Below are positions 1 through 12,422 of a stretch of DNA of 64,000 nucleotides, one piece after another (the first letter of the stretch is position 1; each line of letters opens with the position of its first letter). The position numbers and the translations under genes are program-made. A model generated the notes under the pieces. It saw only the letters and a list, made by a program, of their open reading frames with translations, was not told where the DNA came from and made no database searches. The stretch is from Loktanella salsilacus (GTDB lineage Bacteria; Pseudomonadota; Alphaproteobacteria; Rhodobacterales; Rhodobacteraceae), in assembly GCF_900114485.1 (NCBI RefSeq), contig NZ_FOTF01000002.1:1-64000 (forward strand). The letters run 5' to 3'.

Positions 1-2
1 TC

Positions 3-296
3 GCCTCGCGCTATCCATCATTGCGACATGTATTTGCGGATGGCGGGTATGCAGGGCCCAAACTGCGGGACGCGCTAAAGGCCCTCGGCCGATGGACCGT
101 CCAGATCGTCAAACGCTCTGACACCGCGGAGGGCTTTGAAGTGCTGCCGCGACGGTGGGTCGTCGAGCGCACCTTCGCCTGGCTGAACCGATGTCGCCGC
201 CTATCGAAAGATTGGGAAAAATCCATCGCAAGCGCAGAGGCTTGGATCCTCATCGCACACATCAGACGCGTCACACGGCATCTCGCAAGGGATTGA
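3..296 (+). CDS. IS5-family transposase, C-terminal fragment (5' end outside window)
   Basis: The protein would cut and join DNA for transposition of the element. The frame is open from the left window edge to a TGA at 294-296. Visible features are the FADGGYAG block carrying the second catalytic Asp of DDE transposases and the block RRWVVERTFAWLNRCRRL, which holds the catalytic Glu in the Y/R-x3-E-x6-R/K arrangement of IS4/IS5 enzymes. The C-terminal tail (HIRRVTRHLARD) looks like a normal end, so the visible part is not obviously degenerate. Whether the whole transposase is intact cannot be judged. Confidence 0.85.
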   Translation, partial: ASRYPSLRHVFADGGYAGPKLRDALKALGRWTVQIVKRSDTAEGFEVLPRRWVVERTFAWLNRCRRLSKDWEKSIASAEAWILIAHIRRVTRHLARD

Positions 297-307
297 GAAG
301 GTGCAGT

Positions 308-327
308 TAGTTTTGAATCAGACTCTT
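308..327. repeat. Terminal inverted repeat (right end) of the insertion sequence
   Basis: The 20 bases read TAGTTTTGAATCAGACTCTT and lie 12 bases after the transposase stop. They mark the boundary with the interrupted kinase gene. The partner repeat is outside the window. The exact last base is uncertain by one or two positions, because these elements duplicate a short TA-containing target. Confidence 0.65.
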
Positions 328-1480
328 AGAGGCGCAGTTCGTGCAAAGCCAGAAAATGCAGGCCATTGGTCAGTTAGCGGGCGGCGTTGCGCATGATTTC
401 AATAATCTGCTCACTGCGATTTCAGGGCACTGCGACCTGCTGCTGCTGCGCCACGATCAGGGCGATCACGACTATGGCGATTTGATCCAGATCCATCAAA
501 ACGCGAACCGCGCGGCAAGCCTTGTGGGGCAGCTTTTGGCATTTTCGCGCAAGCAAAACTTACAACCAGAGCGGATCGATCTGCGCGATACGCTGTCCGA
601 TCTGACCCATCTTCTGAACCGGCTTGTTGGCGAAAAAGTAACACTTATTCTGGACCACGACCCTGATTTGGCCGCGATCAAGGCAGATAAGCGGCAGTTG
701 GAACAGGTCATGATGAACCTTGTCGTCAATGCCCGCGATGCCATGCCGTCGGGCGGCGAAATTGGGATCAAGACCAATAATCGCGTGTTGGACATGCCCC
801 TGATCCGCGACCGGGTCACCGTGCCTGCGGGCGAATATGTCTGCGTGCGGGTCATCGACGAAGGTTGCGGTATTCCGGCCGATCGTCTGGACAAGATATT
901 CGAGCCGTTCTGGACGACCAAACGCCCGGGAGAGGGAACTGGACTTGGGCTGTCGACGGTTTATGGCATCGTGAAGCAGACTGGCGGCTATATCTTTGCG
1001 CATTCAGAGGTGGGGGTTAGCACGGAATTTGAATTGTTATTCCCAAGTCATTCGCTGCCCGTCGCCGACAAATCGCTGATCCCGCCGCCGCAGCACGCAA
1101 CAGTGGTGCGCCAAGGTGATGGCGTTGTGCTGCTGGTCGAGGACGAGGCCCCGGTGCGTGCCTTTGCATCCCGCGCCCTGCGTCTGCGCGGATATACCGT
1201 GCTGGAAGCGGATTGTGCCGAAGGCGCGCTAGAGATGCTTGCTGACCCAGAGCTGAAGGTCGATATCTTTGTGACCGATGTGATCATGCCCGGCAAAGAT
1301 GGTCCAACCTGGGTCAGAGAAGCGCTGATCGAGCGTCCAGCCACCAAGGTTGTTTTTGTGTCGGGGTATTCCGAAGACGCGTTCTCTGACGAAAGCGCAC
1401 GGATACCGGATGCGGTGTTCTTGCCGAAGCCATTCTCTTTGAACGAGCTGACATCGACGGTGCAGGAACAGCTGGCCTAA
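326..1480 (+). pseudogene. cckA: cckA hybrid histidine kinase, 3' part, cut off from its sensor region by an IS
   Basis: CckA phosphorylates ChpT and so controls the CtrA regulator. The remaining frame opens right at the IS end and reads L-E-A-Q-F-V-Q-S-Q-K-M-Q-A-I-G-Q, the usual lead-in to the CckA DHp helix. Counting from a GTG at 341, the phosphorylated His is residue 18 (HDFNN), the N-box is near 125 (NLVVNARDAM), the G1 box near 173 (DEGCGIP) and the G2 box near 197 (GEGTGLGLS). A receiver domain follows from about 262, with phospho-acceptor Asp313 (TDVIMPG) and the conserved Lys in LPKPF. Membrane segments and PAS domains that normally precede DHp are missing. A stop at 314-316 lies in the IS repeat, so only a short cytosolic kinase-receiver protein could be made, for example from GTG 341 or ATG 356. 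In Rhodobacterales this phosphorelay is generally dispensable and controls motility and gene transfer agents. Confidence 0.85.
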
Positions 1481-1513: not shown

Positions 1514-1557
1514 AAGCCTGCACCTTCCGCCTGCTATCAGGCGGAAGGTGCAGGCTT
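1514..1557. terminator. Perfect 20-bp hairpin between convergent cckA and glk
   Basis: Positions 1514-1533 and 1538-1557 are perfectly complementary with a 4-base loop (ctat). The site lies between the cckA stop and the glk stop, so it can serve as a bidirectional terminator. No clear U-run follows, but the stem is exceptionally long and GC-rich. Confidence 0.75.
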
Positions 1558-9805: not shown

Positions 9806-10552
9806 ATGGCAAAGACACCCAGCAAAAATTCATCGGGCCGCGGACAGCGGGATCTGACGGTCAAGGTCAAGACTGCGCGGGGCCGCTCTTTGTCGTCTAC
9901 GCGTTGGCTGCAGCGGCAGTTGAACGACCCCTACGTGAAGAAAGCCAAGATCGAAGGCTATCGCGGCCGGGCGGCGTTCAAGATCTTGGAACTGGACGAT
10001 AAATATCGCTTTCTTATCCCCGGCGCGCGCGTCGTCGATCTGGGCTGTGCGCCCGGCGGTTGGTGCCAAGTCGCGGTGCGCCGCGTGAACGCCTTGGGCG
10101 AGCGGACGTCAAAGGCCGTGGGCCGCGTGCTGGGCGTCGATCTGCAAGAGGTCGAGCCGATTGCTGGCGCTGAAATTCACCAGCTTGATTTTCTGGATGA
10201 CGGTGCCGACCAGTTGGTGATGTCGTGGCTGGATGGCCAAGCCGATGTGGTGATGTCCGACATGGCGGCCTCTGCGTCGGGCCACAAGCAGACCGACCAC
10301 TTGAAAATCATCGCGCTGTGCGAAGCGGCGGCTTATTTTTCCTTCGACGTGCTGACGCCGGGCGGCACCTTTGTCGCCAAGGTTTTGGCGGGCGGGGCAG
10401 AAGGCAATTTGCAAAAGCTTCTGAAATCGCGATTCGAGAAAGTGTCGAACGTCAAACCGCCTGCATCGCGGTCTGACAGTTCGGAAAAGTTCGTCGTCGC
10501 GACCGGTTTCAAAGGACCGCTGCCGGACGATCCAAACGATCAGGACGACTGA
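9806..10552 (+). CDS. rlmE: 23S rRNA 2'-O-methyltransferase RlmE (FtsJ)
   Basis: The 248-aa enzyme methylates the 2'-OH of U2552 in 23S rRNA during late 50S assembly. The SAM site [16 protein letters not shown] is near residues 75-90. The catalytic K-D-K-E residues are visible in [28 protein letters not shown] and SEKFVVAT. The N-terminal extension (about 30 basic residues) is typical of alphaproteobacterial RlmE. In most relatives the Asp motif is SDMAPN; here it is SDMAAS, a mild variation. It follows ppx and converges on the sulfotransferase gene with a 13-base overlap of the ends, leaving no room for a separate terminator. Confidence 0.94.
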
Positions 10553-11342: not shown

Positions 11343-12422
11343 ATGGCAACGGCAGAACTTCTGAAAATGACTGACAAGAAAACCGCCGACAAGCAAAAGG
11401 CGCTGGAAAGCGCGCTGGCGCAAATCGAACGTCAATTCGGCAAGGGGTCCATCATGACCCTTGGCGGCCAAAACCAGATGCGCGACATCGAAGCGACCAG
11501 CACTGGATCGCTTGGACTCGATATCGCGCTTGGCATTGGTGGCCTGCCCAAGGGCCGCATCATTGAAATTTATGGTCCGGAATCATCGGGTAAGACGACG
11601 CTGACCCTGCATTCCATCGCGGAAGAGCAGAAAAAAGGCGGCGTTTGCGCCTTTGTTGATGCGGAACACGCCTTTGATCCGGCCTATGCGAAGAAGCTGG
11701 GCGTCAACCTGGACGAGCTGCTGATTTCGCAGCCCGACACCGGCGAGCAAGCGCTTGAGATTGTTGACACACTGGTCCGCTCTGGCGCGGTCAGCTTGGT
11801 GGTGATCGACTCTGTCGCCGCCCTGACACCGAAGTCGGAAATCGAAGGCGATATGGGCGATAGCAGCGTTGGCGTGCACGCCCGCCTGATGTCCCAAGCG
11901 ATGCGCAAGCTGACCGGTTCGATCAACCGCTCTGGCTGTATGGTGATCTTCATTAACCAGATTCGGATGAAGATCGGCGTCATGTTCGGCTCGCCCGAGA
12001 CGACGACCGGCGGAAATGCGCTGAAGTTCTATGCCTCCGTGCGTTTGGATATCCGCCGCATCGGTTCGATCAAGGACCGGGACGAGGTTGTGGGCAACCA
12101 GACCCGCGTGAAGGTTGTTAAGAACAAAGTCGCGCCGCCGTTCAAGCAGGTCGAATTCGACATCATGTATGGCGAAGGCATTTCCAAAAATGGCGAGCTG
12201 CTGGATCTGGGCGTGAAAGCTGGCGTCGTGGAAAAGTCCGGCGCTTGGTTCAGCTACGGCGACGAGCGTATGGGGCAGGGCCGCGAGAACTCTAAGCAGT
12301 TCCTGAAGGATAACCCTGCAGCCGCGATCGAAATTGAAGACAAAATTCGCGCGGCTCATGGCTTGGACTTCGCGATGTCGGATAACGATTCTGGATCAGA
12401 CGACGATCTGGTTGAAATGTAA
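11343..12422 (+). CDS. recA: Recombinase RecA
   Basis: The 359-aa protein forms the ATP-dependent filament for homologous recombination and triggers LexA self-cleavage. It is full length: core start [21 protein letters not shown], Walker [11 protein letters not shown] (about residue 79), [18 protein letters not shown], Walker [11 protein letters not shown], loop L1 [16 protein letters not shown] and loop L2 [22 protein letters not shown]. The acidic C-terminus [13 protein letters not shown] is the usual regulatory tail. ATG 11343 has an AAGGA site 11 bases upstream. An SOS box controls it and a terminator hairpin (12492-12522) follows, so it is monocistronic. A second internal start at residue 10 (MTDKK) is possible but less well placed. 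Confidence 0.98.

Follow-up and report, generated by a model that had tools for sequence, protein, structure and literature searches.

The CckA-ChpT-CtrA phosphorelay of Loktanella salsilacus has very probably been lost in the recent past through the insertion of mobile elements, and the relay as a whole is most likely non-functional. The preliminary description, which was confined to the window (the whole 64,000-nucleotide stretch analysed here), read an IS5-type insertion inside cckA that separates the sensor from the kinase core. That reading is borne out at both junctions, one on the contig that carries the window (C42) and one on a second contig (C57). Position 1 of the window is base 1 of C42 (280,372 bases), and consequently the left portion of the insertion sequence (IS) and the opposite junction lie outside the window, within an assembly of 4,125,589 bases in 76 contigs. 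The response regulator gene ctrA is itself broken, and the loss of the CtrA phosphorelay, earlier given as one of two possible outcomes, is now strongly favoured.

Table 1. Coordinates of the features discussed in the text (window positions unless a contig is named).
Feature	Position	Strand	Details
Right end of IS5-family insertion sequence	1..325	+	same right end at 16 places in own genome
IS5 transposase, C-terminal part	3..296	+	Pfam DDE_Tnp_1, 70 bits; NF033580 (IS5 family) positions 169-257
Right terminal inverted repeat	308..325	+	15/18 bases pair with GAGCCCGATTTAAAACTA of the left end
In-frame stop TGA within right terminal inverted repeat	314-316	+	sequence
TTA target duplication, right copy (target CTTAG)	326..328	+	left copy TTA at C57:11538-11540
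cckA 3' part, 384 codons and stop	326..1480	+	Pfam HisKA, HATPase_c and receiver domains
AGAGG, candidate ribosome-binding site	328..332	+	8 bases before GTG 341
Possible new frame, soluble kinase core from GTG	341..1480	+	379 aa
cckA 5' part	C57:10347-11540		ATG at 10347, TTA at 11538-11540, then IS left end
IS left end after cckA 5' part	C57:11541-11873		same IS as in the window; NF033580 positions 2-68
ctrA junction regions	C33:211916-212285 and C58:48175-48808		labels L160, L161, L010, L155

An IS5-family element lies within cckA

Judged by its sequence, the element at the left edge of the window is a member of the IS5 family, with a DDE transposase, terminal inverted repeats and a short duplication at a preferred target. 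It may belong to an IS427- or IS1031-like subgroup. Its terminal sequence, TAGTTTTGAATCAGACTC, finishes at position 325. The left and right parts of the transposase score 74.8 and 90.3 bits, respectively, against NF033580, both below the whole-protein cut-off of 110 because each piece is a fragment. Other copies of the element, which had been suggested as worth looking for, are present in number: 16 left and 16 right ends are found in the genome, they sit at or close to contig ends, and no place among them spans a whole copy. C-TNA precedes every left end (16/16) and TNA-G follows every right end (16/16). The duplicated bases are TTA nine times, TAA six times and TCA once at the left ends, and TTA nine times, TAA five times and TCA twice at the right ends (n=16 each), an inequality suggesting that some copy has been rearranged or that some contig is missing. 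Further IS5 copies at contig ends (L006/L123, L011/L122 and L017/L118) seem to split three genes, with equal duplications on both sides; from pairing by eye, these are presumably genes for an oxidoreductase-like protein, a LysR-type regulator and a large membrane protein. A near copy of the IS right end, with 96.6% identity over query 1-326, is found on plasmid NC_020909.1 of Octadecabacter arcticus 238. The two elements have in common the terminal inverted repeats and a 3-base TNA duplication, which in L. salsilacus are read from the two ends alone.

The 5' part of cckA and a matching duplication, proposed earlier as things to be sought beyond the left end of the IS, are located on C57. A query with the 405 N-terminal residues of the Loktanella atrilutea CckA returns one place in the genome, C57:10380-11549, at 67% identity in an open frame of length 425. 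At this place the cckA TTA is followed by GAGCCCGATTTAAAACTA and the start of the transposase, and the contig terminates at 11,873. In the window, cckA continues in frame from the second TTA as LEAQFVQSQKMQAIGQLAGG; the frame from position 326, LEAQFVQSQKMQAIGQLAGGVAHDFNN, stays open until the stop at 1478-1480. A junction near position 327 had been proposed, and its location inside cckA and in frame holds, but the boundary itself has to be shifted, as the IS ends at 325 and positions 326-328 are the TTA duplication. The stop codon noted earlier in the IS repeat is present as TGA. Intact cckA genes do occur in relatives: that of L. atrilutea (L018) encodes 779 aa, the codons flanking the insertion are adjacent in it, and the C57 and window parts share only TTA when placed on it. 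The surroundings agree on both sides, with C57:7597-10151 matching the stretch upstream of L. atrilutea cckA and the two genes downstream of cckA in the window being the same as in L. atrilutea. We take the upstream genes to be guaB and a gene for an rRNA methyltransferase, and the two downstream genes to be glucokinase-like and glycosidase-like. Directly past the cckA stop, window positions 1514-1557 can be read by eye as a hairpin with perfectly matched 20-base arms and a 4-base loop, a possible terminator.

The domains of CckA are distributed over the two parts. The 5' part contains a PAS domain (residues 291-392), a weaker PAS_8 stretch (95-135) and hydrophobic, membrane-like windows between residues 16 and 66, and the 3' part matches HisKA (36.8 bits), HATPase_c (81.6) and Response_reg (57.5). 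A membrane-like segment and PAS before the kinase are thus found on C57 and the HisKA, HATPase_c and receiver domains in the window, but one continuous gene is not. Among the 80 relatives returned, the closest to the 3' part is L. atrilutea CckA, at 89% identity; the NCBIfam CckA models score 478.6 and 389.1 bits on this part, below their full-length cut-offs of 1000.

These features suggest the following course of events. An IS5-family element would have transposed into CTTAG over cckA codons 397-399, in the stretch that links the final PAS domain to the DHp helix, in the same orientation as cckA and with duplication of TTA. The first part would now encode a 406-aa protein with membrane and PAS regions whose end lies within the IS, and the second a kinase-receiver core with neither membrane anchor nor sensor, probably poorly expressed. 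CTNAG occurs at the insertion place in none of the 67 relatives read there, which implies that the target CTTAG exists through the codon choice of this lineage. Because no contig found spans a whole copy, we infer the physical join of C57 to C42 through one IS; recombination between IS copies is a possible alternative to a direct join.

Chance resemblance or a random mis-join at the cckA junctions is very unlikely. Since TTA is the commonest duplication (9/16 on each side), the 3-base match would by itself be weak evidence. The contigs might simply end in a repeat with cckA truly intact, or reads of another strain might have produced the junctions, as the position of the IS ends at or near contig ends and the want of a spanned copy would allow. 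The sequenced culture may also have been a mixed one. Against such an artefact, which is extremely improbable, C57 and C42 each carry more than 300 bases of the IS, which abut a single site in cckA from its two sides, the target preference is present at all 32 ends examined, the assembly has a completeness of 100 and a contamination of 0.02, and junctions of the same kind occur in ctrA on two other contigs. The contig-join error that the preliminary description had held against its own reading is likewise made unlikely by the matching second junction.

Neither part of cckA is visibly decayed. The two parts were compared separately with 67 relatives whose frames exceed 700 residues, using columns in which at least 95% of the 68 sequences (own included) agree. 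At these near-invariant columns, the L. salsilacus core deviates at 1/213 (rank 23 of 68, median 1) and the sensor part at 0/30 (rank 22 of 68, median 0). This fits a recent insertion, as had been surmised, and would also fit parts that are still under selection.

ctrA is broken, probably by elements of two types

The CtrA model NF045991 (cut-off 350 bits) has no match over its cut-off in the L. salsilacus genome, where the best match reaches 207.8 bits and covers model positions 119-224 only (C58:48175-48492). All five relatives examined (L. atrilutea, L. fryxellensis, Loktanella sp. SALINAS62, Loktanella sp. DSM 29012 and G006) have one full match each, at 419.6-431.9 bits. The 3' part of ctrA, which reads KGHAQSIIKTG, starts at codon 118/119 on C58, right at an IS5 right end with TAA. 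A DNA search with the region upstream of L. atrilutea ctrA matches C33:205847-211965 and ends inside ctrA, whose 5' end on this contig reads MRVLLVEDDPTTSKSIELM and passes after codon 19 into GTAAGCG and a frame resembling IS66 TnpA. We take GTAAGCG to be an IS66 end. The best NCBIfam match of this frame, which is cut by the contig end, is NF047595 (IS66 TnpA) at 54.4 bits with a cut-off of 74; an IS3 model scores weakly on the same frame, at 21.8 bits. DNA similar to the IS66-like element underlies plasmid 'transposase' genes. Otherwise C58 (over about 15 kb) and C33 (over about 6 kb) retain the arrangement of genes found around ctrA in L. atrilutea.

As read from these junctions, ctrA carries at least two insertions: the gene would enter an IS66-like element near its 5' end, and its 3' part would begin where a further IS5 copy ends. 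Codons 20 to 118 were not found in the assembly, and this middle portion may be deleted or may lie on a small contig absent from the assembly. When the 16 right and 16 left IS5 flanks are compared with the ctrA regions of relatives, only one (L010) matches. Two ends are missing from the picture of ctrA, whose structure is thus incomplete: none of the 16 left flanks could be assigned to its IS5 copy, and no right end was found for the IS66-like element.

The detached kinase core

The preliminary description noted that the remaining cckA fragment keeps its kinase motifs and the receiver Asp313. Both are confirmed when the frame is counted from GTG 341, with HDFNN beginning at residue 18 and the receiver Asp at residue 313. 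From the letters at its 5' edge, AGAGG is a possible ribosome-binding site for this GTG, and with a start codon and a reasonable ribosome-binding site still in place some kinase could be made. A conserved native internal start in cckA was considered and rejected: at the corresponding position, GTG is found in 29/67 intact genes of relatives and an SD-like sequence in 10/67. This comparison began with 80 loci, of which a strict motif yielded 71 cores and 67 readable sites, the other 13 being dropped; an alternative motif reads 75/80 loci and gives the same codon mix at the GTG-341 position.

A soluble core translated from GTG 341 on a read-through transposase transcript could act on ChpT and on a further response regulator, as a kinase or phosphatase free of control. 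The shared orientation of the IS and cckA, the AGAGG placed 8 bases ahead of the GTG, the presence of the kinase and receiver domains with their motifs, the open chpT frame and the lack of decay in the core are all consistent with such a protein. We nevertheless consider it unlikely, given that the known output is gone with the broken ctrA, that relatives conserve neither the start codon nor the ribosome-binding site, that no sigma-70-like promoter directed outward from the IS end is found in window positions 1-500 (0 against 0.2 expected), and that the activity of Caulobacter CckA on liposomes requires the PAS sensor, as the available part of that study describes (PMC4853435). The same study, in the sections available, reports that c-di-GMP control depends on PAS-B and that, within the PAS sensor, it is mainly PAS-A that activity on liposomes requires (PMC4853435).

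The constitutively switched CckA put forward in the preliminary description is accordingly unsupported, there being no promoter-like site in positions 1-500 and, from the accessible text, a need for the PAS sensor in Caulobacter (PMC4853435). Because of this need, a PAS-less core would be expected to show weak activity and not a switched-on state, an expectation carried over a large distance from Caulobacter to Loktanella. Phosphorylated CtrA, the known output of the core, cannot arise from a broken gene, and a sensor-less constitutive kinase is therefore the less likely half of the earlier reading. The absence of decay in the core would also fit selection acting on it. For the preferred explanation, loss of the relay through insertions, we infer that there is no useful kinase output, that CtrA control of its target genes is gone and that the loss is recent.

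Spare copies and distribution of cckA in the family

An intact second cckA elsewhere, a possibility raised in the preliminary description, was sought in the assembly and none was found. A search with the kinase core hits 35 places in the genome; leaving aside cckA itself, the top hit has 38% identity. This place (C54:65812-66873) was rejected as a second CckA on account of its 5TM-LYT sensor and its other PAS domains. The gene concerned (L163:2361-4943, on C54) encodes a hybrid kinase with a CckA-like core (38%) and 5TM-LYT and PAS_3 sensor domains.

Across the family, a CckA match at 1e-60 or better is present in 270/295 genomes, and in 240/260 of those of good quality. Among the survey matches listed, which are the stronger ones, L. 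salsilacus alone has a short frame (387), all others being at least 752 aa long; weaker matches may include further truncated genes. The 25 of 295 family genomes that yield no CckA match at 1e-60 (20 of the 260 good-quality ones) may reflect loss or divergence of CckA in other lineages.

chpT and the checked gene transfer agent genes remain open

The third relay gene, chpT, is an open frame of 199 aa with an HPTransfase domain. The gene transfer agent (GTA) cluster is located on C33, at about 126,386-140,448, and its checked frames are open. Eight of the nine frames scanned have a Pfam match and one has none, the matches comprising terminase, portal, prohead protease, capsid, head-tail connector, tail completion, tail tube and DUF2460; the cluster also includes a 1308-residue frame with a GTA TIM domain. 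ChpT could serve another receiver. It is conceivable, though very improbable, that selection in a natural roseobacter lineage took the relay apart step by step, with the sensor-less core and chpT kept for another response regulator and the GTA cluster running without CtrA.

Origin of the insertions

A random model with 16 IS5 insertions on 4.13 Mb gives a chance of ~1e-4 that at least two fall in the three relay genes, or 9e-4 with a tripled rate that allows for genes tolerating no insertion; the model took the lengths of cckA and ctrA from L. atrilutea and that of chpT from L. salsilacus. The estimate is a rough guide, as the three genes were singled out only once the data were known, and the IS66-like insertion comes in addition. 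The clustering hints that the relay was dispensable or disadvantageous, and once a first insertion had struck the relay, later ones would be neutral. The likely cause is that the relay had become less necessary or was selected against.

Viable relay mutants are known from other roseobacters. In the available portions of the respective reports, the relay is essential in Caulobacter crescentus and not in Ruegeria sp. KLH11, whose null mutants grow normally and are non-motile (PMC3692519); transposon insertions in all three relay genes yield non-motile mutants of Phaeobacter inhibens (PMC12363192); and Dinoroseobacter shibae, in which CtrA is a master regulator of flagellar biosynthesis, has mutants with nearly homogeneous cells and slightly reduced GTA expression (PMC4046655). 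Loss of the relay is thus viable in Rhodobacterales. As far as the accessible text of these studies goes, the genes affected are the same as in L. salsilacus and the mutants are likewise viable. Unlike in these experimental mutants, the losses described here are in the genome as sequenced, and two relay genes have been struck, ctrA by two elements.

The insertions could have been selected during laboratory passage, for instance through the loss of costly flagella, an origin that concerns the cause alone and is compatible with the preferred explanation. The normal laboratory growth of Ruegeria sp. KLH11 relay mutants, as given in the available part of that report (PMC3692519), and the lack of decay in either cckA part would agree with it. 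It is still rather unlikely, as one culture history would have to include three or more insertions by elements of two types, the later of which bring no obvious extra gain after the first. That many insertions, spread over two genes of the relay, speak rather against a single culture event.

Implications for the relay in Rhodobacterales

Inactivation by IS elements is a known type of event; it is the repeated strikes on one relay, beside an intact GTA cluster, that make this case of interest. The polar Octadecabacter genomes are IS-rich roseobacter genomes in which most pseudogenes are associated with elements or contain an insertion, and the portions available of that report describe element-inactivated genes like those seen here and make no mention of cckA or ctrA (PMC3646047). 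The literature searched, most subscription journals being outside its scope, yielded no description of cckA or ctrA being lost or struck by an IS in nature, and the available part of PMC8116508 contains no natural insertion in either gene.

The fragment on C42, taken alone, could be listed as 'CckA' in annotation, which calls for caution. L. salsilacus appears to be a natural double mutant, with cckA cut once, ctrA cut by two elements, and chpT and the checked GTA genes open. Such a mutant could show the real functions of the relay outside the laboratory and the order in which regulator and target genes decay.
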